A stretch of 64,000 nt of DNA, from the NCBI RefSeq assembly GCF_040730185.1, contig NZ_CP160402.1, positions 5,022,001 through 5,086,000 of the forward strand, given 5' to 3'. Of the stretch, positions 1 to 21,611 are shown piece after piece. Position 1 is the first letter of the stretch. Each line of letters starts with the position of its first letter. A model generated the notes under the pieces. The model did no database searches. It had not been told where the DNA came from and saw nothing but the letters and a program-made list of their open reading frames with translations. The translations under genes were made by a program, and so were the position numbers. Source of the DNA: Streptomyces sp. Je 1-332 (GTDB lineage: Bacteria; Actinomycetota; Actinomycetes; Streptomycetales; Streptomycetaceae).

Positions 1-1
1 G

Positions 2-934
2 GAGACCTTCGCCCACACCTGCGCGGTGATGCAGACGAAGGACGCCCTCAAGCGCGTGGCCGCCGAGTGCGCCGAGGACCTCGCCGAGGACGGCGTCGTC
101 TACGCCGAGATCCGGTACGCCCCCGAGCAGCACCTGGAGCAGGGCCTCACCCTCGAAGAGGTCGTCGAGGCCGTCAACGAAGGCTTCCGGGAGGGCGAGC
201 GGCGCGCGAAGGCCAACGGCCACCGCATCCGGGTGGGCGCGCTGCTGACCGCCATGCGGCACGCGGCCCGCGCCCTGGAGATCGCCGAACTCGCCAACCG
301 CTACCGCGATCTGGGCGTCGTCGGCTTCGACATCGCGGGCGCGGAGGCGGGCTTCCCGCCCACCCGGCACCTCGACGCGTTCGAGTACCTCAAGCGCGAG
401 AACAACCACTTCACCATCCACGCGGGCGAGGCCTTCGGTCTGCCGTCCATCTGGCAGGCCCTGCAGTGGTGCGGCGCCGACCGCCTCGGCCACGGCGTGC
501 GGATCATCGACGACATCCAGGTCGCCGACGACGGCACCGTGAAGCTCGGCCGCCTCGCCAGCTATGTGCGCGACAAGCGCATCCCCCTGGAGATGTGCCC
601 CAGCTCCAACCTCCAGACGGGCGCGGCGAGCTCGTACGCCGAGCACCCCATCGGCCTGCTGCGCAAGCTGCACTTCCGCGCCACGGTGAACACCGACAAC
701 CGCCTGATGTCGGGCACCAGCATGAGCCGCGAATTCGAGCACCTGGTCGAGACTTTCGGTTACACGCTCGACGACATGCAGTGGTTCACAGTCAATGCGA
801 TGAAATCAGCGTTCATTCCTTTCGATGAACGCCTTGCCATGATCAGTGACGTGATCAAGCCCGGATATGCCGAGCTGAAGTCCGAATGGCTGTTCCGTCA
901 GACCGCCTCCACCAGGGCTTCTGTCGACGTGTAA
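2..934 (+). CDS. add: adenosine deaminase, 5'-truncated by the window edge
   Basis: Purine-salvage enzyme that deaminates adenosine and deoxyadenosine to inosine and deoxyinosine in the cytoplasm. The frame is open from the first complete codon, so the true start and the first metal-binding His-x-His lie before the window; about 310 residues are present. Seen: the HAGE box with the catalytic Glu (codons from base 419), an SSNLQT segment and a VNTDN turn, all typical of the family. The last 50 codons use more A/T at third positions than the rest. A hairpin with a T run follows the stop. deoC and a purine nucleoside phosphorylase downstream give a nucleoside-salvage context. Identity is very likely. 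Confidence 0.95.
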
Positions 935-8447: not shown

Positions 8448-9338
8448 TCAGTACGAGGAGCCGGACGCGCCCAGAGAACCCGTGGGGTGCCAGACGGTCT
8501 TGGTCTCCAGGAAGGCGGTCAGGCGGTGCGTGCCCGGGTCCGCCGACCAGTCCACAGGCTGTGGACGGACGACGCGCTTGAGGTTGTCCGCCGCGGCGAC
8601 CTCCAGCTCCTTGGCCAGTACGTCGTCCTCGACGCCCGCGAGGTCGATCGCGTTCACGTCCTGGTGCGCGGCGAGCGACGGGGTGATCTCCGCCGTACGG
8701 CCCGAGAGGATGTTGACCACGCCGCCGGGCAGGTCGGAGGTGGCGAGCACCTCGCCCAGCGAGAGCGCCGGGAGCGGGGAGTCCTCGCTCGCGATCACCA
8801 CGGCCGTGTTGCCCGTCGCGATCACCGGGGCGATGACCGACACCAGGCCGAGGAACGAGGACTTCTGCGGGGCGACGACCGTCACCACGCCCGTCGGCTC
8901 CGGCGAGGAGAGGTTGAAGAAGGGGCCCGCGACCGGGTTTCCGCCGCCGACGAGCTGGGCGATCTTGTCGGTCCAGCCCGCGTACCAGACCCAGCGGTCG
9001 ATCGCCGCGTCCACCACCGCGGCGGCCTTCGACTTGGACAGGCCCTCCGCCTCGGCGACCTCGCGGACGAACTGCTCCCTGCGGCCCTCCAGCATCTCCG
9101 CGACGCGGTAGAGGATCTGGCCGCGGAGGTAGGCCGTCTTGCCCGCCCAGCCACCCTGCGCCTTGCGCGCGGCGGAGACGGCGTCACGCGCGTCCTTGCG
9201 GGAGGAGAGCGGGGCGTTGGCCAGCCACTTGTTCTTCGAGTCAGTCACCTCGTACACCCGGCCGCTCTCGGAACGCGGGAACTTCCCGCCCACGTACAGC
9301 TTGTAGGTCTTGAAGACGCTCAAACGCTGCTCAGACAT
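8448..9338 (-). CDS. aldehyde dehydrogenase homologue without catalytic Cys
   Basis: 296 residues matching only the N-terminal (NAD-binding) part of the aldehyde dehydrogenase fold: KLYVGGKFPRSESGR, AVSAARKAQGGWAGKTAYLRGQ, DRWVWYAGWTDK. The protein has no cysteine at all, the usual PWNFP is replaced by APQKSSFLG, and the catalytic domain is missing, so it cannot work as an aldehyde dehydrogenase. ATG 9338 overlaps the end of the full-length gene by 8 bp (its stop is 9331-9333), so the two are likely made together. S. coelicolor has a comparable short partner as I recall. A regulatory or scaffold subunit is my guess; calling it a pseudogene is less likely because its codons and frame are clean. 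Confidence 0.8.
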   Translation of the reverse strand: MSEQRLSVFKTYKLYVGGKFPRSESGRVYEVTDSKNKWLANAPLSSRKDARDAVSAARKAQGGWAGKTAYLRGQILYRVAEMLEGRREQFVREVAEAEGLSKSKAAAVVDAAIDRWVWYAGWTDKIAQLVGGGNPVAGPFFNLSSPEPTGVVTVVAPQKSSFLGLVSVIAPVIATGNTAVVIASEDSPLPALSLGEVLATSDLPGGVVNILSGRTAEITPSLAAHQDVNAIDLAGVEDDVLAKELEVAAADNLKRVVRPQPVDWSADPGTHRLTAFLETKTVWHPTGSLGASGSSY

Positions 9339-10770
9339 CGAGGTAAGCCTCCAGGCCGTGGCGGCCGCCCTCGCGGCCGTAACCCGATTCCTTGTAGCCG
9401 CCGAAGGGCGAGGTCGGGTCGAACTTGTTGAACGTGTTGGCCCAGATGACGCCCGCCCGCAGGCGGTCGGCGACCGCGAGGATGCGCGAGCCCTTCTCCG
9501 TCCAGATGCCGGCGGAGAGGCCGTACTGCGTGTTGTTGGCCTTGGCGACGGCCTCTTCCGGCGTGCGGAAGGTCAGCACCGAGAGCACCGGGCCGAAGAT
9601 CTCGTCGCGCGCGACGGTGTGCGCCTGCGTGACGTTCGTGAACAGCGTCGGCGCGAACCAGTAGCCGGAGGAGGGCAGTTCGCACGGGGCGGACCAGCGC
9701 TCGGCGCCCTCCGCCTCGCCGGTCTCGGTCAGGGCCTTGATGCGGGCGAGCTGCTCGGCGGAGTTGATCGCGCCGATGTCCGTGTTCTTGTCCAGCGGGT
9801 CACCGAGGCGCAGGGTGGTCAGGCGCCGCTTCAGGGCGTCGAGCACCTCGTCCTTGACCGACTCCTGTACGAGGAGGCGCGAGCCCGCGCAGCAGACCTG
9901 GCCCTGGTTGAAGAAGATGCCCGTGACGATGCCCTCGACGGCCTGGTCGATGGGGGCGTCGTCGAAGACGATGTTGGCGCCCTTGCCGCCCAGTTCGAGC
10001 GTGACCTTCTTGTCCGTGCCCGCGACCTGGCGCGCGATGGCCTTGCCGACGGCGGTCGAGCCGGTGAAGGCGACCTTGTTCACGTCCGGGTGCGCGGTGA
10101 GGGCCGCGCCCGCGTCGCCGTACCCGGGAAGGATGTTGACGACGCCCTTGGGCAGGCCCGCCTGGCGGCAGATGTCCGCGAAGAACAGGGCGCTCAGGGG
10201 CGTGGTCTCGGCGGGCTTCAGGACGACGGTGTTGCCCGTCGCGAGGGCGGGGGCGATCTTCCACGCGAGCATCAGGAGCGGGAAGTTCCAGGGGATGACC
10301 TGGCCCGCGACGCCGAGCGGCTTCGGGTCCGCGCCATAGCCCGCGTGGTCGAGCTTGTCGGCCCAGCCCGCGTAGTAGAAGAAGTGCGCGGCGACCAGCG
10401 GGAGGTCGGCGTCGCGCGTCTCCTTGATGGGCTTTCCGTTGTCGAGGGTCTCCAGGACGGCCAGTTCGCGGCTGCGCTCCTGGATGATCCGCGCGATGCG
10501 GAAGAGGTACTTGGCGCGCTCGGCGCCCGGCAGCGCGGACCACTTCTCGAAGGCCCTGCGGGCGGCCTTGACCGCGCGGTCGACGTCTTCGGACGAGGCC
10601 TGCGCGACCTCGGAGAGGACCTCTTCGGTGGAGGGCGAGACGGTCTTGAAGACCTTGCCGTCGGCGGCCTCCACGAACTCGCCGTCGATGAACAGGCCGT
10701 ACGACGGCGCGATGTCGACGACCGCGCGGGACTCCGGCGCGGGAGCGTACTCGAAGCGTGGGGAAGTCAT
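9331..10770 (-). CDS. NAD-dependent aldehyde dehydrogenase
   Basis: 479-residue full-length enzyme oxidising an aldehyde to the acid. Seen: PWNFPLLML, KPAETTPLSA, FTGSTAVGKAIA (cofactor site), LELGGKGANIVF with the general-base Glu, FFNQGQVCCAGSR with the catalytic Cys, and a C-terminal FGGYKESGYGREGG. Three bases after the deoC stop, so the natural substrate is probably acetaldehyde released by deoxyribose-phosphate aldolase; that is inference from the operon. ATG 10770. Confidence 0.92.
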   Translation of the reverse strand: MTSPRFEYAPAPESRAVVDIAPSYGLFIDGEFVEAADGKVFKTVSPSTEEVLSEVAQASSEDVDRAVKAARRAFEKWSALPGAERAKYLFRIARIIQERSRELAVLETLDNGKPIKETRDADLPLVAAHFFYYAGWADKLDHAGYGADPKPLGVAGQVIPWNFPLLMLAWKIAPALATGNTVVLKPAETTPLSALFFADICRQAGLPKGVVNILPGYGDAGAALTAHPDVNKVAFTGSTAVGKAIARQVAGTDKKVTLELGGKGANIVFDDAPIDQAVEGIVTGIFFNQGQVCCAGSRLLVQESVKDEVLDALKRRLTTLRLGDPLDKNTDIGAINSAEQLARIKALTETGEAEGAERWSAPCELPSSGYWFAPTLFTNVTQAHTVARDEIFGPVLSVLTFRTPEEAVAKANNTQYGLSAGIWTEKGSRILAVADRLRAGVIWANTFNKFDPTSPFGGYKESGYGREGGRHGLEAYLDV

Positions 10771-10773
10771 GGG

Positions 10774-11733
10774 TCAGTCCACCGTCACGTAGTCGGGGCC
10801 GGAGTAGCGGCCCGTGGCCAGCTTCTGGCGCTGCATCAGCAGGTCGTTGAGGAGCGATGAGGCGCCGAAGCGGAACCAGTGGTTGTCCAGCCAGTCCTCG
10901 CCCGCGGTCTCGTTCACCAGGACGAGGAACTTGATCGCGTCCTTGGAGGTGCGGATGCCGCCCGCGGGCTTCACCCCGACCTGTACGCCGGTCTGCTCGC
11001 GGAAGTCGCGCACGGCCTCCAGCATCAGGAGGGTGTTCGCGGGGGTGGCGTTGACGCCGACCTTGCCGGTCGAGGTCTTGATGAAGTCCGCGCCCGCGAG
11101 CATGCCGATCCAGGAGGCGCGGCGGATGTTGTCGTACGTGGACAGCTCGCCGGTCTCGAAGATGACCTTGAGCCGGGCCTCGCCGGAGGCTTCCTTCACG
11201 GCGCGGATCTGCTCGAACACCGTCATGTAGTCGCCGGCGAGGAAGGCGCCGCGGTCGATGACCATGTCGATCTCGTCGGCACCCGCCGCGACGGCCTCGC
11301 GGACGTCGCCGAGCTTCACGTCGATGGCGGCGCGGCCCGCGGGGAAGGCGGTCGCGACGGAGGCGACCTTGACGCCGCTGTCGCCGACGGCTTCCTTGGC
11401 GGTGGCCACCATGTCCGGATAGACGCAGACCGCGGCGGTCCTCGGGGTGCCGCGGTCGGTCGGATCGGGGTGCACGGCCTTCGCGCCGAGCGCCCGGACC
11501 TTGCCCGGGGTGTCGGCGCCCTCCAGCGTCGTCAGGTCGATCATCGAGATGGCGAGATCGATGGCGTACGCCTTCGCCGTCGTCTTGATCGAACGGGTGC
11601 CGAGCGCTGAGGCGCGTGCCTCCAGGCCGACCGTGTCGACGCCGGGCAGCCCGTGGAGGAAGCGGCGCAGCGTGCGGTCCGACGCTGTGGCGTCCGTCAG
11701 CGCGTGTGCGGTGGGGGCGGATGCAGGGGGCAT
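10774..11733 (-). CDS. deoC: deoxyribose-phosphate aldolase
   Basis: Splits 2-deoxyribose 5-phosphate, the product of deoxynucleoside breakdown, into glyceraldehyde 3-phosphate and acetaldehyde. 319 residues; the Schiff-base Lys lies in ADFIKTSTGK and the second active-site Lys in VGVKPAGGIRT; DEIDMVIDRG is also conserved. ATG 11733 is chosen since the upstream frame is repetitive promoter DNA. First gene of a three-gene operon with two aldehyde dehydrogenase homologues. A perfect 12-bp palindrome sits 19 bp before the start and recurs in front of the purine nucleoside phosphorylase gene, so it is probably controlled by nucleosides. Confidence 0.95.
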   Translation of the reverse strand: MPPASAPTAHALTDATASDRTLRRFLHGLPGVDTVGLEARASALGTRSIKTTAKAYAIDLAISMIDLTTLEGADTPGKVRALGAKAVHPDPTDRGTPRTAAVCVYPDMVATAKEAVGDSGVKVASVATAFPAGRAAIDVKLGDVREAVAAGADEIDMVIDRGAFLAGDYMTVFEQIRAVKEASGEARLKVIFETGELSTYDNIRRASWIGMLAGADFIKTSTGKVGVNATPANTLLMLEAVRDFREQTGVQVGVKPAGGIRTSKDAIKFLVLVNETAGEDWLDNHWFRFGASSLLNDLLMQRQKLATGRYSGPDYVTVD

Positions 11734-11752
11734 GGTCACGAGGGGAGCATAT

Positions 11753-11764
11753 CTACGCGCGTAG
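11753..11764. promoter_or_regulatory. putative nucleoside operator, copy 1
   Basis: Perfect palindrome CTACGCGCGTAG, ending 20 bases before the deoC start codon. The identical 12-mer lies at 17471-17482 before the purine nucleoside phosphorylase gene. Two identical palindromes at the same relative place before two genes of one pathway point to a shared repressor site. The regulator is not identified. Confidence 0.7.
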
Positions 11765-11957
11765 CGGCTGTACAGGGGGCGGGTTGCTCCGGGGGTGGCT
11801 CCGTGGGTTGCTCTGCGGGTGGCTCCTGGGTGGCTCCCGGGTGGCTCCCCCTTTGGCAGGGCGCCGTCTTCCTCTCGAGGCCCGCCGCTTCGTGGCGGAT
11901 TTCTCCCACCCGCCCACCCGATCACCCCGCAGTGAAGCGCTCAGGCAGAATCAACCC

Positions 11958-12608
11958 ATGAGTGAGCCCCAGCACCCCCAGGCTGAGCCCGAGTACAAGG
12001 ACCGGACCTACCGGTCGTCCGGCGGTATCGCCGGAGGCGTCCTGCTGCTCGCCCTCGGCGGCTGGCTCGGCATCGACGCGATGATCCGGGGGGAGGGCCG
12101 CACCCCGTGGCTCGCGCTCGCCGGGCTGCTCCTGGCGGTGCCGCTCGTCGTCGCCTTCACCCTGCGCCCCGCCGTGTACGCCAACGACGACCGGCTCCGC
12201 GTCCGCAACCCGTTCCGCACGATCACGCTCCCGTGGGCGTCGGTCTCGGGGCTGCGTTCCGGGTACTCGAACGAGGTCCTCACCCAGTCCGGCACCAAGT
12301 ACCAGCTCTGGGCCATCCCGGTCTCCCTGCGCGGCCGCAAGAAGGCGGCGCGGCGGAGGTCGCAGGCGATGGCCGCCGGTGATCCGAGCGTCGGCGGCCC
12401 CGGTCTGCGTGCTTCGACGCGGCCCGGTCAGCCGCCGTCCCAGCGCGCCGCCGGTGACCAGGTCATGGACGACCTGCGCGACCTGTCCGAGCAGCGCGCC
12501 GCCGCGAAGTCCGCGCAGGGCGAGCCCGAGGTCCGCTGGGGCTACGAGATCCTCGCCCCGGCGGTGGCCGGGGTGGTGCTGCTCGCGGTGATCCTCGCCG
12601 TTGGCTAG
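11958..12608 (+). CDS. PH-domain membrane protein
   Basis: 216 residues. Two N-terminal transmembrane helices (about 20-40 and 49-68), then a bacterial PH-like domain (VYANDDRLRVRNPFRTITLPWASVSGLR, about residues 74-125), a flexible Arg/Ala-rich stretch and a C-terminal helix (LAPAVAGVVLLAVILAVG). Common in actinobacteria with unknown role; membrane-associated scaffolding is likely. ATG 11958. The last 26 codons form the first copy of a 178-bp unit repeated three times at the 3' end. Divergent from deoC. Confidence 0.8.
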   Translation: MSEPQHPQAEPEYKDRTYRSSGGIAGGVLLLALGGWLGIDAMIRGEGRTPWLALAGLLLAVPLVVAFTLRPAVYANDDRLRVRNPFRTITLPWASVSGLRSGYSNEVLTQSGTKYQLWAIPVSLRGRKKAARRRSQAMAAGDPSVGGPGLRASTRPGQPPSQRAAGDQVMDDLRDLSEQRAAAKSAQGEPEVRWGYEILAPAVAGVVLLAVILAVG

Positions 12609-13064
12609 AGGCCGCGCTCACGGCGGGCCCGTCCACGCGAGCAGCGTGTGGCCCCCGAACGCTGCCGATGTCGTCGCCGCTACCACCGTCACCGTCACGG
12701 CCACGTGCGTCCGTTGGGGCTTTGAGAGTCTCGCGCCGGCGGTGGCCGGGGTGGTGCTGCTCGCGGTGATCCTTGCCGTTGGTTAGAGGCCGCGCTCACG
12801 GCGGGCCCATCCAGGCGAGCAGCATGTGGCCCCCGAACGCTGCCGATGTCGTCGCCGCTACCACCGTCACCGTCACGGCCACGTGCGTCCGTTGGGGCTT
12901 TGAGAGTCTCGCGCCGGCGGTGGCCGGGGTGGTGCTGCTCGCGGTGATCCTCGCCGTTGGTTAGAGGCCGCGCTCACGGCGGGCCCATCCAGGCGAGCAG
13001 CATGTGGCCCCCGAACGCTGCCGATGTCGTCGCCGCCGCCACCATCACCGTCACGGCCACGTGC
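12531..13064. repeat. three tandem copies of a 178-bp convergent gene-end junction
   Basis: Copies at 12531-12708, 12709-12886 and 12887-13064, exactly 178 bp each. Every unit contains the last codons of the PH-domain gene (+ strand, stop codons at 12606, 12784, 12962) and the last codons of the mannosyltransferase gene (- strand). Copy 1 carries the genuine 3' end of the former, copy 3 that of the latter. Copies 2 and 3 share identical changes in the PH-gene tail, and copies 1 and 2 share changes in the other tail. 178 is not a multiple of three, so the extra tails are out of frame with each other and are probably untranslated. Confidence 0.9.
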
Positions 13065-14221
13065 GTCCGTGCGCGGGCCAGTGTCGCCGCGAGCGGCAGC
13101 AGCAAGGGGAAGCCGGGGAGCAGGAAGCGGGCGCGGGGGAAGTAGACCCCCTTGCTGCCGAGCACGATCAGGAGCAGCAGGCCCGTGAAGACCAGCAGCG
13201 GCAGCGGCTGCCGGTCGCCCACCGACAGGACGAACAGCGCCACCGACGCGAGCAGCGTCGCGGTCACCATGATCAGGAACAGCTGCGGACGCTGCGCCGC
13301 GAGCAGGTCGTACATCGTCCGCAGGGTGGCCACCCCGCCGTCCCACTCGTTGCGCCACAGCTTCTGCACGGCGAAGTAACCGTCCCAGCGGCCGAGCCGC
13401 AGCCCCACCCAGCCGACGTACGAGAGCCAGCCGAGCGGGGCGAGCAGGGCGCCCAGAAGCGTGTGTACGCGCGCCTTGCCGTCGCCCTTCGCCCGGCGCG
13501 TGCGCCACAGCGTGAGCAGGGCCGTCAGGGACACCGCCGCCGCGAGCGCCACCCCCGTAGGGCGGGTCAGGCCCGCGAGTGCGGCCAGCGAACCCGCCCA
13601 GATCCAGCGGCCGGTGAGCACGGCGTACAGGGACCACGCCGTGAGTGCCGTGAAGAGCGACTCCGTGTAGCCCATCCACTGCACGAGCGCGATGGGCAGC
13701 GAACCCCAGAGCGCGGCGAGCAGGACGCCCGCCCTGCGCCCGTACAGATGGTCGCCCACCGCGAAGATCCCCCACGCCGCGAGCAACGAGCAGAGGACGG
13801 AGACCGTGAGACCCACGGCGCCGCGCGGCTCCGGGACGAGCACGCTGCCCGCCCTGATGAGCAGCGGGTGCAGCGGGAAGAAGGCGAGGTTGTTCGCGTC
13901 GATCTGGGTGCCCAGGGTGTTCGCGTACCCCTTGTCGGCGATCCTCAGATACCAGTCGCAGTCCCACGACTCCGCAAGAAGATGCCAGACGTCCCGGTGC
14001 TCCCTGCGGGCCCACAGGGCGAAGACGACGGCCCCGAAGAGGCGTACGGCGGCGTACGCGAGGAGTGCGGGCGACGCGTGGCGCAGGGCGCGGGTGGCGC
14101 GTGCCCTGCGGTCCGTGCTGAGGTTCCGCGCGCTGCCGGGGCGGCCGGCCGGGGGAACGATCCGGGGTGCGGCGGCGGACGCCGGGGCGGTCGAGGTCTC
14201 TGGGGTCGGTCCGTACGGCAC
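12974..14221 (-). CDS. PIG-V-type mannosyltransferase, membrane glycosyltransferase
   Basis: 415-residue GT-C fold membrane protein. At least eight hydrophobic segments; the first extracytoplasmic loop has the acidic WDCDWYLRIADKGY motif typical of PIG-V/PMT-like transferases, followed by FFPLHPLLIR and, later, WMGYTESLF and LTRPTGVALA. It likely transfers mannose from a polyprenyl-phosphate donor outside the cell; acceptor unknown. GTG 14221 is the only start that leaves the first helix complete. The first 45 residues are a cytoplasmic Ala/Pro-rich tail. Lies just after the phosphohexomutase gene, which may supply mannose phosphate, but a strong hairpin separates them. Confidence 0.85.
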   Translation of the reverse strand: MPYGPTPETSTAPASAAAPRIVPPAGRPGSARNLSTDRRARATRALRHASPALLAYAAVRLFGAVVFALWARREHRDVWHLLAESWDCDWYLRIADKGYANTLGTQIDANNLAFFPLHPLLIRAGSVLVPEPRGAVGLTVSVLCSLLAAWGIFAVGDHLYGRRAGVLLAALWGSLPIALVQWMGYTESLFTALTAWSLYAVLTGRWIWAGSLAALAGLTRPTGVALAAAVSLTALLTLWRTRRAKGDGKARVHTLLGALLAPLGWLSYVGWVGLRLGRWDGYFAVQKLWRNEWDGGVATLRTMYDLLAAQRPQLFLIMVTATLLASVALFVLSVGDRQPLPLLVFTGLLLLIVLGSKGVYFPRARFLLPGFPLLLPLAATLARARTHVAVTVMVAAATTSAAFGGHMLLAWMGPP

Positions 14222-14244
14222 TGCGGCAGCTCCCGGAACGTGAT

Positions 14245-14287
14245 CGTGCGCTGCCGGTCACCCTTCCTGGGGGACCGGCAGCGCACG
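14245..14287 (-). terminator. terminator hairpin after the phosphohexomutase gene
   Basis: Perfect 15-bp stem (14245-14259 with 14273-14287) with a 13-base loop. It lies 76 bp past the phosphomutase stop and only 23 bp before the mannosyltransferase start, so the latter must be transcribed from within or just after it, or by partial read-through. Confidence 0.7.
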
Positions 14288-14362
14288 GGGTCGCTGCGGC
14301 AGCTGCGCCGGCGGAACCACCCGGACGGGTGGCCCCCCGCCGCTGTCCGCGTCGGCTATCGG

Positions 14363-16009
14363 CTAGATGCCGGCGGCCGCCGAAAGGTCGCGCTTGATCG
14401 CCGCGAGGAGTTCCGTGGCCTCGGTGCGGGCGGCGGGCAGGCCGGACTTCTCCGACACCGGGACCACCACCTCCAGGTAGCACTTCAGCTTCGGCTCCGT
14501 GCCGCTCGGGCGCACGATGACGCGGGCCCCGTCGAGCGTGTAGCGCAGGCCGTCCGTGGGCGGCAGCGTGTCCGTGCCCCGCGTGAGGTCCTCGGCCCTG
14601 GTCACGGGCAGACCCGCGAGCACGGTCGGCGGCTGCTCGCGCAGGCGGCGCATCGCGTCCGCGATCACGGAGAGGTCCTCCACGCGGACCGAAAGCTGGT
14701 CGGTGGCGTGCAGCCCGTGCTCCACGGCGAGGTCTTCCAGAAGGTCGAGCAGGGTGCGCCCCTGCTCCTTCAGCTCGGACGCCAGCTCGGTCAGGAGCAG
14801 CGCCGCCGTGATGCCGTCCTTGTCGCGTACGCCTTCGGGGTCCACGCAGTAGCCGAGGGCCTCTTCGTAGCCGTAGCGCAGGTCCTCCACGCGGGCGATC
14901 CACTTGAAGCCGGTGAGGGTCTCCTCGTAACCGAGGCCCGCCTTCTGCGCGATCCGGCCCAGCAGGGAGGAGGACACGATCGACTCGGCGAACGTGCCGC
15001 GGGCGCCCCGACGCACGAGGTGGGCCGCCAGGAGCGCGCCGACCTCGTCGCCCCGGAGCATGCGCCAGTCAGCGCCGCCGGGGCCGTCCTTGACCGCCGC
15101 GGCGCAGCGGTCCGCGTCCGGGTCGTTGGCGATGATCAGGTCCGGGTCCGCCTCGCGGGCCTTGGCGAAGGAGAGGTCCATCGCGCCCGGCTCCTCCGGG
15201 TTGGGGAACGCGACGGTCGGGAAGTCCGGGTCGGGCTCCGCCTGCTCGGCGACGAGCTCCGGGGCGGGGAAGCCCGCCCGCTCGAACGCCGCGAGGAGCA
15301 TGTCCTTGCCGACGCCGTGCATCGCCGTATAGACGGTGCGGGCCGTGCGGGGGGAGCCGGGGGACAGGACGGCGTCGGTACGGGCGAGGTAGGCGTCGAG
15401 GACGTCGTCGCCGAGGGTCTGCCAGCCGGACTCGGGGCGGGGCACGTCGTGCAGGCTCGCGACGGCGTCGATCTGCGCCGCGATCTCCGCGTCGGCGGGC
15501 GGGACGATCTGGGAGCCGTCGCCGAGGTAGACCTTGTAGCCGTTGTCGCGCGGGGGGTTGTGGCTCGCCGTCACCTCCACGCCGGCGACCGCGCCGAGGT
15601 GCCTTATGGCGAAGGCGAGTACGGGGGTGGGGAGCGGGCGGGGGAGCACCGCCGCCCTGAGTCCGGCGCCGGTCATCACGGCGGCCGTGTCGCGCGCGAA
15701 GTCGGCCGACTTGTGGCGGGCGTCGTAGCCGACGACGACCAGACCGCCGGTCTGTCCCTTGGCCTTGAGGTACGCGGCGAGGCCCGCCGCCGCGCGGATG
15801 ACCACGGAGCGGTTCATGCGCATGGGGCCCGCGCCGAGCTCCCCGCGGAGGCCGGCGGTGCCGAACTGGAGGGTGCCGCTGAAACGGGCGGTCAGCTCTG
15901 CGGTGTCCTCGGCGTCGATGAGCTTCGCGAGTTCCTCGCGGGTCTCGCTGTCCGGGTCCTCGGCCAGCCAGGCCTGGGCCCGCGCGATGAGTTCAGAGTC
16001 GTCCAGCAC
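14363..16009 (-). CDS. phospho-sugar mutase (phosphomannomutase/phosphopentomutase-like)
   Basis: 548-residue alpha-D-phosphohexomutase. Four-domain landmarks in order: phosphoserine loop VTASHNPPRDNGYK with Ser149, Mg loop NDPDADR, sugar-binding EEALGY and phosphate-binding RPSGTEPK. Interconverts 1- and 6-phosphates of mannose or glucose, or ribose 1/5-phosphate. The location between deoC and the purine nucleoside phosphorylase would fit phosphopentomutase activity, needed to feed deoC, whereas sequence labels usually say phosphomannomutase; I cannot decide. GTG 16009. Confidence 0.9.
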   Translation of the reverse strand: MLDDSELIARAQAWLAEDPDSETREELAKLIDAEDTAELTARFSGTLQFGTAGLRGELGAGPMRMNRSVVIRAAAGLAAYLKAKGQTGGLVVVGYDARHKSADFARDTAAVMTGAGLRAAVLPRPLPTPVLAFAIRHLGAVAGVEVTASHNPPRDNGYKVYLGDGSQIVPPADAEIAAQIDAVASLHDVPRPESGWQTLGDDVLDAYLARTDAVLSPGSPRTARTVYTAMHGVGKDMLLAAFERAGFPAPELVAEQAEPDPDFPTVAFPNPEEPGAMDLSFAKAREADPDLIIANDPDADRCAAAVKDGPGGADWRMLRGDEVGALLAAHLVRRGARGTFAESIVSSSLLGRIAQKAGLGYEETLTGFKWIARVEDLRYGYEEALGYCVDPEGVRDKDGITAALLLTELASELKEQGRTLLDLLEDLAVEHGLHATDQLSVRVEDLSVIADAMRRLREQPPTVLAGLPVTRAEDLTRGTDTLPPTDGLRYTLDGARVIVRPSGTEPKLKCYLEVVVPVSEKSGLPAARTEATELLAAIKRDLSAAAGI

Positions 16010-16623
16010 GGTTCTTCAGCCTCTCGTATGCGGGGTTCTGTGCGGGCCGGGTATGGCTACCCGAGCCCGGGGCGGGTGCGGGGTGGGTACCCGGGCGGTT
16101 CGGTTCCGGGGCGGCCCCCGGTGCGTCTACCCGTTGCGGGTCGGGGGGCTTGCCCGGCTTGGGCCGCGGGTGCGTCTGTCTTTGGTGCGGCCCCCCCGGT
16201 GGGGCCTTTCTGTCCCACCGCTTCGCGGTGGATCTTTCCCGCCCACCCACCCGTTCACCCCGCGGCGGCAATGGCTTACGCACCCGCCCGACGCTCCGGG
16301 GCAAACGGGTGGGTGGGCGGAAAAGCCCGTGCGGCAACAGGCCTGACGCTCCGGGGCAAACGGGTGGGCGGGAGGGAAGGCCTGTACGGCAACAGGCCCG
16401 ACGCTCCGGGGTAAACGGGTGGGTGGGAGGGAAGGCCTGTACGGCAACCAGCGCTCCGGGCCACCAAGGCACAGTGCAGGGGCGCTCCCCCGGGGAGAGA
16501 AGCCCCAGGCCGACCGAAGCGCTCCCGGAGCAACGCACCCCGCCGGGCAAGTCGCCCCGCCGGGCAAGGGCACCCGCTAAGCAAGACGGCCCCCGCCAGG
16601 CCGGAGTCCCCCGCAGGGAAAAA
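16010..16623. other. 614-bp intergenic region with G-rich repeats, no gene
   Basis: No coding feature is convincing. It holds a 55-bp tandem repeat array on the right and, at about 16235-16260, the reverse-complement of the repeat core (CCCGCCCACCCACCCGTT). Similar cores are found at 11905-11930 and 28300-28385, so the element is dispersed. The left part has short CGGGTG-rich tracts. Confidence 0.7.
16290..16454. repeat. three 55-bp tandem repeats with G-quadruplex cores
   Basis: Units begin at 16290, 16345 and 16400 (GACGCTCCGGGG...), period 55 bp, with a broken fourth copy after 16450. Each has four short G runs separated by single bases: 16307-16320 (last run only GG), 16362-16376 and 16417-16431 (GGGTGGGTGGGAGGG). 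Single-base loops of this kind form very stable parallel quadruplexes in vitro. Confidence 0.85.
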
Positions 16624-17445
16624 TTAAATGCGGCCCAAGACGTCGCCCAGCAGCTCGCCCATGCGGGTAGCGCTGTCGCGGCCCGCCTGGAGGACTTCCT
16701 CGTGGTTCAGGGGCTCACCCGTCATGCCCGCGGCGAGGTTCGTCACCAGGGAGATGCCGAGCACCTCCGCACCCGCCTCACGCGCGGCGATCGCCTCGAG
16801 GACCGTCGACATGCCCACCAGGTCCGCACCGATCGTGCGGGCCATGCGGATCTCCGCCGGAGTCTCGTAGTGCGGGCCGGGGAACTGCGCGTAGACGCCC
16901 TCTTCGAGGGAGGGGTCGATCTCCTTGCAGAGGGCGCGCAGCCGCGGCGAGTACAGGTCCGTGAGGTCCACGAAGTTCGCGCCGACGATCGGCGACGTGG
17001 CCGTCAGGTTGAGGTGGTCGTTGATCAGGACCGGCTGGCCGGGACGCATGCCGTCGCGCAGACCGCCACAGCCGTTCGTCAGCACGATCGTCTTGCAGCC
17101 CGCGGCCACCGCGGTACGCACGCCGTGCGCGACGGCGGCGACGCCACGGCCCTCGTAGTAGTGGGTGCGGCCCAGGAAGACCAGGGCGCGCTTCTCCCCG
17201 ATCGAGATGGAGCGGATACGCCCCCCGTGTCCTTCCACGGCCGGCATCGGGAAGCCGGGCAGCTCGGTGACGGGGAACTCGGCGTCGGGCTCGCCGAGCG
17301 CGTCCACCGCCGGCGCCCAGCCGGAGCCCATCACAAGGGCTACGTCATGGGTCTCGGCGCCCGTCAGCTCACGCAGACGCGTGGCGGCGGCGTCGGCGGC
17401 GACGTAGGGGTCGCCCTGGTCATCCGAAATAACTGAAGCGTTCAC
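16624..17445 (-). CDS. punA: purine nucleoside phosphorylase
   Basis: Phosphorolysis of (deoxy)inosine and (deoxy)guanosine to base plus (deoxy)ribose 1-phosphate. 273 residues of the trimeric class: VMGSGW phosphate loop, [32 protein letters not shown] and [10 protein letters not shown] with the substrate-binding Met/Ser, and a late VTNLAAG with the purine-binding Asn. GTG 17445 avoids an Arg-rich leader and leaves the operator palindrome 25 bp upstream. Works after adenosine deaminase and before phosphosugar mutase/deoC in nucleoside catabolism. Confidence 0.93.
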
Positions 17446-17470
17446 GCGGACGAGAGTAGCCGCTCTCGCC

Positions 17471-17482
17471 CTACGCGCGTAG
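17471..17482. promoter_or_regulatory. putative nucleoside operator, copy 2
   Basis: Perfect palindrome CTACGCGCGTAG, 25 bases before the phosphorylase start codon and identical to the site before deoC (11753-11764). Apart from this site, the 133-bp gap to the next gene shows nothing recognised. Confidence 0.7.
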
Positions 17483-18046: not shown

Positions 18047-18121
18047 GCCCCTCCGGTGCGCACCGGCCCCTCCAGTGGTGCGCGCAGGCCCCTCCAGCGG
18101 TGCGCGCAGGCCCCTCCAGTA
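18047..18121. repeat. 22-bp direct repeats in a divergent promoter gap
   Basis: Units built on GGTGCGCGCAGGCCCCTCCA: two near-identical 22-bp units at about 18074-18095 and 18096-18117, preceded by a diverged one (about 18055-18073). They lie between the GGCT-fold gene (start 18016) and lpdA (start 18177). They could be slippage products or regulator-binding iterons. Confidence 0.7.
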
Positions 18122-19835: not shown

Positions 19836-20813
19836 GTGTTCGCTGCAGAACGTCGCCAATTGATCCTCGAAATGGTGCGGGCCAACGGAGCGGTATCGCT
19901 CCGGGAGCTCGCCCGCGTCGTCCAGACCTCCGAAGTGACCGTACGGCGGGACGTGCGCGCGCTGGAGGCAGAAGGACTCCTCGACCGCAGACATGGCGGT
20001 GCGGTATTGCCGGGCGGATTCACGCGGGAGTCCGGCTTTCCGCAGAAATCACATCTCGCGACCGCCGAGAAGACGGCTATCGCCGATCTCGCGGCGGGAC
20101 TCGTCGAAGAAGGCGAAGCCATCGTCGTCGGGGCGGGTACGACCACGCAGGAGCTGGCCCGACGGCTCGCGCGGGTACCCGGTCTGACCGTCGTCACCAA
20201 CTCCCTGTTGGTGGCACAGGCGCTGGCCCATGCCAACCGCGTCGAGGTCGTCATGACCGGCGGCACCCTGCGCGGGTCCAACTACGCGCTCGTGGGCAGC
20301 GGGGCCGAACAGTCCCTGCAGGGCCTGCGGGTCTCACGCGCCTTTCTGTCGGGCAGTGGTCTGACCGCCGAACGCGGGCTCTCCACGTCCAACATGCTCT
20401 CGGCGAGCGTGGACCGTGCGCTCGTGCAGGCCGCGGCCGAGGTGGTGGTCCTCGCCGATCACACCAAGCTCGGCACCGACACGATGTTCCAGACGGTGCC
20501 GACGGACGTCATCACGCGCCTGGTCACGGACGAACCGCCCACGCACGACGACCGCGCGGCCACCGAGCTGCAGGCCCTGGCCGACCAGGGAGTGCAGATC
20601 GCCGTCGCCGGCGGGACAGTGAGCCCCAACTCCGGGCCGGGGGTGGATTCCGTCCCGGCGCGGCAGCCGCGCCGGGACGTGCCACTGCCGGGACAGCGCC
20701 GTAACCACGGCGGTCACGGGTCGGGCCCCGGGGCGCAGTTGCGCAGTGCGGTGCTCGGGGAGCAGCAGCCCGGGGAGCGGGCCGCGCGGGTGGCGGATCT
20801 ACGCCGCCGCTGA
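19836..20813 (+). CDS. DeoR/GlpR-family transcriptional regulator
   Basis: 325 residues. N-terminal winged helix (RRQLILEMVRANGAVSLRELARVVQTSEVTVRRD, ending RRHGGAVL) and a DeoR C-terminal effector domain with VVVGAGTTTQELARRL and MTGGTLRGSNYALVG, the sugar-phosphate-isomerase-like pocket. The last 60 residues are Arg/Gly-rich and not part of the fold. GTG 19836. Its 3' end overlaps the convergent tetR gene by 15 bp. DeoR proteins usually answer to phosphorylated sugars; whether it reads the CTACGCGCGTAG sites is unknown. Confidence 0.85.
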   Translation: MFAAERRQLILEMVRANGAVSLRELARVVQTSEVTVRRDVRALEAEGLLDRRHGGAVLPGGFTRESGFPQKSHLATAEKTAIADLAAGLVEEGEAIVVGAGTTTQELARRLARVPGLTVVTNSLLVAQALAHANRVEVVMTGGTLRGSNYALVGSGAEQSLQGLRVSRAFLSGSGLTAERGLSTSNMLSASVDRALVQAAAEVVVLADHTKLGTDTMFQTVPTDVITRLVTDEPPTHDDRAATELQALADQGVQIAVAGGTVSPNSGPGVDSVPARQPRRDVPLPGQRRNHGGHGSGPGAQLRSAVLGEQQPGERAARVADLRRR

Positions 20814-21446
20814 ACCGGCAGCCGCCGCCGGGGCCGGACCGCGGTCTTCGGGTGCCGATCCTTCGGGCTTCAGGCCGCGCAGGGTCAGCGTCAGGAGACG
20901 GTCGGCCAACTCGGGGTCGTCCGGGGTCTCTTCGGCGGCCAGCGCGATCGCGTTGGTCAGCTGCAACAGATCGCCGATCGAGACACCGGGGCGTACGGCA
21001 CCGGCCTGCTGGGCCCGTACGAGCAGGGCTGTGCCCGCCTCACGCATGGGCCTGCTGCACTGCGAGAGTGCCGAACTGTCGTCGTGCGACGCCGACATGA
21101 GGGCGCGCGACAGCCCGCGGTACTCACCCGCATGAGTGATGATGGCGCGCAGCCAGGTCACCAGAGCCGAGCAGGGCTGCGGGTCTTCGAGCAGCGCTCG
21201 GGAGCGGACGAGCAGATCGCTCAACGCCTCTTCGAAGACCGCGTTCATCAGGGCGTGGCGGTTGGGGAAGTGGCGGTAGAGGGTGCCGATGCCTACGTTC
21301 GCGTGGCGGGCGATTTCTTCTAGCGAGGCGCTTGTGCCGTGCTCTGCGAAGGCGGCGCGGGCCTCTGCGAGGAGCTTGTCGTAGTTGCGGCGCGCGTCCG
21401 CCCTTTTCGAGCGGGGGCGCTCTTGCGGGCTCTCTGCCTCTGCCAT
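20799..21446 (-). CDS. TetR-family transcriptional regulator
   Basis: 215 residues. Helix-turn-helix at about residues 35-65 (ASLEEIARHANVGIGTLYRHFPNR), then an all-helical ligand domain of the TetR_C SbtR-like type (GLSRALMSASHDDSSAL). ATG 21446. C terminus ends in an Ala/Pro tract. Target unknown; the neighbouring accA2 gene is on the same strand upstream but separated by a terminator hairpin, so the regulator is probably independent. Confidence 0.85.
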   Translation of the reverse strand: MAEAESPQERPRSKRADARRNYDKLLAEARAAFAEHGTSASLEEIARHANVGIGTLYRHFPNRHALMNAVFEEALSDLLVRSRALLEDPQPCSALVTWLRAIITHAGEYRGLSRALMSASHDDSSALSQCSRPMREAGTALLVRAQQAGAVRPGVSIGDLLQLTNAIALAAEETPDDPELADRLLTLTLRGLKPEGSAPEDRGPAPAAAAGSAAA

Positions 21447-21555
21447 GGCGTGCCTCCCTGGACGTACGCGTGCTTCAAGTCTGCCCGAAGCGTGCGTGCC
21501 GTTCATCACCGGCTTCGCCGAGTTCGTCCTCAAACGCCGGACGGGCTGGATACTC

Positions 21556-21590
21556 CGCTGGCCGGGCTGGAAGCTCCAGCCCGGCCAGCG
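21556..21590 (-). terminator. terminator hairpin after accA2
   Basis: Perfect 16-bp stem (21556-21571 with 21575-21590) with a three-base loop, 21 bp beyond the accA2 stop codon. The arm CGCTGGCCGGGCTGGA is typical of Streptomyces intergenic hairpins. Confidence 0.8.
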
Positions 21591-21611
21591 TACGAGCAAA
21601 CGCTCTGCGGG

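Follow-up and report, generated by a model that had tools for sequence, protein, structure and literature searches.

A conserved 12-bp palindrome as the probable operator of a nucleoside regulon in Streptomyces and its family

The 64,000-nucleotide stretch of the Streptomyces sp. Je 1-332 genome analysed here (the window; contig NZ_CP160402.1, positions 5,022,001 to 5,086,000) carries CTACGCGCGTAG, a perfect 12-bp palindrome, at 11753-11764 and again at 17471-17482, in front of the deoxyribose-phosphate aldolase gene deoC and the purine nucleoside phosphorylase gene pnp. Its gene context and its conservation make it very probable that this palindrome serves as operator in a single nucleoside regulon, common to the whole family Streptomycetaceae. 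A DeoR-family protein encoded near pnp is the best candidate for the protein that reads it, and imperfect versions of the site stand before genes of transport, purine synthesis and pyrimidine breakdown.

Exact copies of the palindrome and their conservation

The two copies lie exactly where the first-pass annotation of the window had placed them, 19 bp before the deoC ATG (11733) and 25 bp before the pnp GTG (17445), and they are alone, as it had also said: every other place in the window has at least two mismatches, the next best having two. In the whole 8,274,399-base genome the exact sequence occurs four times (5010868, 5021737, 5033753 and 5039471), all within 28.6 kb, against 0.94 copies per genome expected from the base composition of the window and none of a reversed-pattern control. 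The four copies precede, in this order, the ATPase gene of a Bmp-type ATP-binding cassette (ABC) transporter for nucleosides, the adenosine deaminase gene add, deoC and pnp; the first two lie outside the window, the add copy (5021737-5021748) 253-264 bases to the left of its position 1. The annotation's judgement that such a pairing is very unlikely to arise by chance is borne out by this clustering and by random sampling of the window: among 20,000 draws of 230 bp, not one contained a site with one mismatch or none, and 0.7% contained a site with two or fewer (draws close to the two known copies were passed over yet kept in the denominator). Allowing one mismatch throughout the source genome gives 23 places versus 30 for the reversed control, that is, no enrichment, so that a lone one-mismatch site proves nothing and context and conservation have to carry the evidence. 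The features concerned are the following.

11753..11764, no strand: putative deoC operator, perfect 12-bp palindrome, kept before deoC in 11/11 genomes with one mismatch or none
17471..17482, no strand: putative pnp operator, perfect 12-bp palindrome, present with at most one mismatch in 11/12 genomes and with two mismatches in the other
10774..11739, minus strand: deoC, deoxyribose-phosphate aldolase (PF01791; TIGR00126 above cut-off)
9331..10770, minus strand: aldehyde dehydrogenase gene directly behind deoC (PF00171; own site 0/9)
8448..9338, minus strand: second aldehyde dehydrogenase-like gene, overlapping the first (PF00171, half-length match; own site 0/11)
16624..17445, minus strand: pnp, purine nucleoside phosphorylase (PF01048; TIGR01698 above cut-off; probable leaderless GTG start)
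14363..16009, minus strand: phosphomutase gene behind pnp in the same orientation (PF02878/79/80; own site 0/12)
1..934, plus strand: 3' part of add, adenosine deaminase (PF00962), its start and an exact palindrome lying just left of the window
19836..20813, plus strand: DeoR-family regulator gene, best candidate for the binder of the palindrome (PF08220, PF00455), with an ortholog in 24/24 family genomes tested

The exact palindrome is found in all 121 same-genus genomes sampled, where the reversed control has 0-3 copies per genome, and in 393 of the 394 family genomes sampled, covering 16 of 17 genera with 1-6 copies each (control 0-5); the two samples overlap. The sole exception within the family, genome G505, has versions with one or two mismatches at add, deoC and pnp. 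Outside the family, an exact copy occurs once each in 3/15 genomes of the order sample and 5/287 of the phylum sample, and in two of those three order genomes the copy sits in the same surrounding sequence, protein-coding by eye, as expected by chance.

Retention of the site was followed in a panel of 12 genomes from 11 genera, from 200 bp upstream to 30 bp downstream of each start codon; the counts cover those genes that passed the identity limits and lay within the sequence retrieved. With no more than one mismatch allowed, pnp has the site in 11/12 genomes (the other has two mismatches), deoC in 11/11 and add in 7/7, together 29/30. The orthologous deoC and pnp genes have thus kept it, and the absence that would have refuted the first-pass annotation was not seen. 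Among twelve neighbouring genes the same search found none in 105 cases (cdd 0/6, perm1 0/6, aldh1 0/9, aldh2 0/11, pmm 0/12, AIG2-like 0/12, lpd 0/12, deoR 0/11, accA 0/6, afsQ1 0/10, sigQ 0/4, udk 0/6); at two mismatches afsQ1 has sites in 3/10 and the other eleven have none. Beyond the family, no site with up to two mismatches was found within 150 bp before the aligned pnp start in any of 30 loci, second copies included. What the first-pass annotation had taken for a local nucleoside regulon is thus strongly supported as a nucleoside regulon and is family-wide rather than local. Of the members it had listed, add and pnp stand, as does deoC together with the aldehyde dehydrogenase genes that follow it; the phosphomutase gene, with no site of its own, could come under control only by way of pnp.

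The genes at exact copies elsewhere in the family point the same way. The surroundings of an exact copy were inspected at 111 loci of the family (109 distinct). These were for the most part the first-listed site of each genome together with picked places, and hence are not a random draw. Nucleoside genes account for 101 of the 109: pnp (40), the ABC ATPase gene (27), add (17), a second add gene (10) and deoC (7). One further locus each has a 5'-nucleotidase-like and a HAD-hydrolase gene; the query proteins for the second add, nucleotidase-like and HAD genes were taken from such loci themselves, and add and HAD were assigned by Pfam, the nucleotidase-like gene by the look of its sequence only. 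The distance from palindrome to pnp start is 25-26 bp in 34 of the 40 pnp loci, and in the second add gene the palindrome lies inside the gene, within codons 3-7, at the same place in 10/10. One conserved site therefore precedes genes of transport, deaminase, phosphorylase and aldolase function, as in a deo-type regulon, with a reach beyond the members first listed: the nucleoside ABC transporter, the second adenosine deaminase gene and, through imperfect sites, purSQL and a pyrimidine-breakdown gene. Two results in the panel fit this picture less well, the ABC ATPase gene having a site with at most one mismatch in only 3/6 genomes and deoA in only 1/6.

Three side observations concern these loci. 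At locus L058 an exact palindrome (1501-1512) lies about 150 bp before the gene that looks like a 5'-nucleotidase, and in genome G095 one (L311, 15170) lies before the HAD-hydrolase gene, 3.6 kb from the site of a beta-ureidopropionase-like gene. The nucleoside ABC ATPase gene of the source genome apparently starts with ATC (L005, 10918-10920), its nearest listed in-frame start being a GTG at 10795, upstream of the palindrome; AGGAG(A/T)-GTGCGCC-ATC occurs in all 20 distinct sequences, the source genome included, that have GTGCGCC-AT behind the palindrome, and a conserved AUC start codon is possible for this gene.

The position of the palindrome relative to promoter elements suggests repression. 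At deoC a single base stands between it and a TATGCT -10-like element (11746-11751, minus strand), at pnp it lies 12 bp upstream of TACTCT (17453-17458, minus strand), and at add and purS the spacing to the -10-like element is 4 bp and about 14 bp; a protein bound beside the -10 and -35 elements could block RNA polymerase, which fits a repressor. The start codons of add, deoC and pnp follow the -10-like element by 6-7 bases (for deoC, the probable leaderless GTG at 11739, the ATG at 11733 being also possible), so that these mRNAs are probably leaderless and the palindrome would lie outside the RNA. That the palindrome is no operator at all and represents a sigma-factor element, an RNA hairpin or a coincidence is very improbable. 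Copies that look like chance do occur in 3/15 order-sample and 5/287 phylum-sample genomes outside the family, and an automatic test assigned no regulon gene to 6 of the 109 family loci; of these, L045 reads as a pnp truncated where its contig stops, and five lie elsewhere. We reject these explanations because the spacing to the -10 varies (1, 4, 12 and 14 bp) and the site can follow a start codon, which does not fit a -35 element of a sigma factor; because the site lies upstream of probably leaderless starts and so outside the RNA; and because conservation and gene context exclude chance.

In the mechanism that we propose, a conserved repressor acting on CTACGCGCGTAG would control nucleoside uptake and breakdown in Streptomyces and its kin. 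It would occupy perfect operators beside or between the -10 and -35 elements of add, deoC with its aldehyde dehydrogenase genes, and pnp, further perfect operators before the ATPase gene of the nucleoside ABC transporter and inside the second add gene, and weaker, imperfect operators before the bmp lipoprotein genes, purSQL and the beta-ureidopropionase-like gene, and would hold back RNA polymerase until a breakdown product appears.

Imperfect sites at transport, purine-synthesis and pyrimidine-breakdown genes

In the source genome a one-mismatch copy, CTATGCGCGTAG, stands before deoA, and CTACGCGCGTTA stands before each of two bmp lipoprotein genes; in the panel, sites with at most two mismatches precede bmp1 in 3/3 and bmp2 in 6/6 genomes, where both queries can match one gene. 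The beta-ureidopropionase-like gene (PF00795), present in 19 of 23 family genomes searched and accompanied by genes for a dihydropyrimidinase-like amidohydrolase and an aminotransferase, has a one-mismatch site upstream in 14 of 20 best copies (the source genome and 13/19) and a two-mismatch site in one more; none of five second copies has a site. For purSQL we compared 81 loci, the source genome and 80 others, whose family part includes Streptomyces, Kitasatospora and Streptacidiphilus. All 36 family loci have a site near purS, 32 with one mismatch and four with two, most commonly CTACCCGCGTAG, CTACTCGCGTAG or CTACGCGAGTAG, and no site with up to two mismatches was found in the 45 non-family loci. 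None of the family purSQL sites is an exact copy (L014, L328-L361 and L405), as though selection favoured weak binding. In the source genome (L014, near 1501) the purS site is accompanied by a second, everted pair of half-sites, CGTAG-AAAC-CTACG.

Two features of these sites weigh against placing them under the same regulator as the nucleoside genes. The centres of the 14 one-mismatch beta-ureidopropionase-like sites are GG, TG or CA and never CG, and the purSQL sites always depart from the palindrome by one or two mismatches, usually with C or T at position 5; because of this, these genes may belong to another regulator. Two related proteins could then share the half-site CTACG, one serving the nucleoside genes through sites with a CG centre and the other serving purSQL, the beta-ureidopropionase-like gene or both. 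We consider such a division unlikely, since purSQL shares single variants of the site (CTATGCGCGTAG and CTACGCGAGTAG) with deoA, pnp or deoC, and since the exact site of G095 stands so close to a beta-ureidopropionase-like site.

A more ambitious reading, which we regard as doubtful, is that a single repressor of DeoR type connects the uptake and breakdown of nucleosides with the degradation of pyrimidine bases and with de novo purine synthesis, its affinity being graded by operator quality. The catabolic genes would have perfect operators, those of purSQL, bmp and the beta-ureidopropionase-like gene would have been selected to be imperfect, and salvage and synthesis would open at different levels of a pentose-phosphate signal.

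The DeoR-family candidate and other possible regulators

The first-pass annotation had left the regulator as one of DeoR, LacI or GntR type, and of these the DeoR type is the best supported, as a candidate binder. The gene at 19836-20813 encodes an N-terminal DeoR-type winged helix-turn-helix (PF08220, 52.3 bits, cut-off 21) and a C-terminal DeoRC sensor domain (PF00455, 171.8 bits, cut-off 31.8), and lies behind lpd, 2.4 kb from pnp. The gene and its setting recur across the family: orthologs with 74-100% identity are present in 24/24 genomes of 17 genera tested, lpd is beside deoR in 23/24 loci, and deoR and pnp share one fetched stretch in 10 of 11 other genomes, the contig ending in the eleventh. 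In the order outgroup the best relatives are only 32-43% identical in 13/13 genomes. Among the 24 family sequences, 2 of 60 positions vary in the N-terminal helix-turn-helix region versus 64 of 173 compared in the remainder of the protein; as a yardstick, the DNA-binding domain of AfsQ1 varies at 13 of 80 positions (10 sequences). The sole solved structure found by sequence, 7l6l, has a chain named Deoxyribose operon repressor (E 1e-7). If the DeoR-family protein beside pnp is the regulator, which we think most likely for the proposed mechanism, it would sense a pentose phosphate, such as a deoxyribose- or ribose-phosphate.

Several results weigh against this assignment. The deoR promoter itself has no palindrome with up to two mismatches (0/11), and 20 non-family loci with DeoR relatives (52-71% identity), searched over up to 20 kb, contain no copy with one mismatch or none; the closest of these relatives have nearly the same recognition helix. 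The seven closest are encoded directly beside ABC-transporter ATPase genes, taken for those of sugar transporters, and three of them (L228-L230) have clustered TGATC(A/G) words upstream of deoR, which are possibly these relatives' own operators. The best NCBIfam match of the candidate is AgaR, below its cut-off, and not DeoR, and sensing of a pentose phosphate would not obviously explain the presence of purSQL and of pyrimidine-base breakdown in the regulon. Given the siteless promoter and the siteless non-family relatives, we put the chance that this protein reads the palindrome slightly below even.

A comparable, nearly even chance attaches to the possibility that the palindrome is bound as an operator by another, unlinked regulator, for instance of the LacI, TetR or GntR kind, sensing a purine, nucleoside or nucleotide, in which case the neighbouring deoR would control something else. 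The absence of the site from the deoR promoter and from the surroundings of non-family relatives, the closest of which accompany ABC transporters, speaks for it, as does the membership of purSQL and the pyrimidine-breakdown gene, which would suit a base- or nucleotide-sensing protein; a central CG also suits LacI operators. Against it, no other regulator was recognised as kept in the cluster except AfsQ1-like and SigQ-like genes, and AfsQ1 binds other repeats. Nor was any regulator gene recognised at the exact sites or starting at the 18 one-mismatch sites outside the cluster, judged by eye.

Searches for a regulator that marks itself by its own site gave nothing further. No LacI or GntR regulator was recognised at the source genome's exact or one-mismatch sites, these families not having been censused genome-wide, and by-eye inspection of the 18 one-mismatch sites outside the cluster (L007-L017, L248-L254) showed no autoregulated regulator at the site, BldC-like and GntR-like genes lying more than 1 kb from two of them. 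The 11 places with CTACNNNCGTAG and the surroundings of the beta-ureidopropionase-like gene likewise showed no recognisable regulator gene. A TetR gene in the window (20799-21599) was rejected because it is not conserved at the locus, occurring in the roughly 4-kb stretch around deoR in only 4 of 24 family loci.

Related systems, earlier literature and neighbouring repeats

In E. coli, DeoR and CytR repress the genes of nucleoside uptake and catabolism through short palindromic operators. The Streptomyces regulon proposed here would resemble that deo regulon in repressing the same kind of genes through such operators and, if the candidate is right, in employing a DeoR-family protein with a DeoRC sensor domain; it differs in operator sequence and, unlike the E. 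coli regulon, also includes add, a Bmp-type ABC transporter, purSQL and a pyrimidine-breakdown gene. Against the E. coli DeoR equivalog NF007961, whose cut-off is 244, the candidate reaches 73.6 bits, and by that test it is no ortholog of E. coli DeoR. XdhR and AllR of Streptomyces likewise control purine breakdown and differ in their targets, which are xanthine dehydrogenase and the allantoin pathway. NupR of Bacillus thuringiensis, described as controlling mainly nucleoside transport, belongs to a different family (GntR/HutC) and phylum (PMC9430930).

During mycelial lysis and development, nucleic acid is recycled in Streptomyces, whose products include nucleoside antibiotics and nucleotide-derived signals. 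Because the operator is defined to 12 bp and has few targets, one pull-down should be enough to identify its regulator, and one testable circuit would link nucleoside salvage, purine synthesis and pyrimidine breakdown across a bacterial family. From gene order we take SCO4920 of Streptomyces coelicolor to be probably the ortholog of the gene at 19836-20813. It is called a putative deoR family regulator in a network module linked to bldN and other regulatory genes (PMC3224704) and is among the regulators of a glucose study (PMC4848846), with no nucleoside target named for it in those passages. Similarly, SCO4914 appears as deoxyribose-phosphate aldolase (PMC3293853) and SCO4901 as adenosine deaminase (PMC7244524), and the passages retrieved from these papers and from PMC8510090 describe no such regulon. 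We found no description of a Streptomyces nucleoside regulon or its operator in the openly licensed papers searched, though one may exist elsewhere. There, to judge from titles and one passage, CTACGCGCGTAG and its 10-base core occur in seemingly unrelated contexts, none of them by title concerned with Streptomyces and one being a crystallised dodecamer used for docking.

Tandem repeats lie around these genes. Three copies of a 178-bp unit (95% match) occupy 12531-13070 of the window and repeat the 3' end of one gene with the stretch towards a convergent mannosyltransferase-like gene, and two arrays flank pnp, one of a 55-bp unit (3.0 copies) at 16286-16448 and one of a 22-bp unit (3.0 copies) at 18055-18120.

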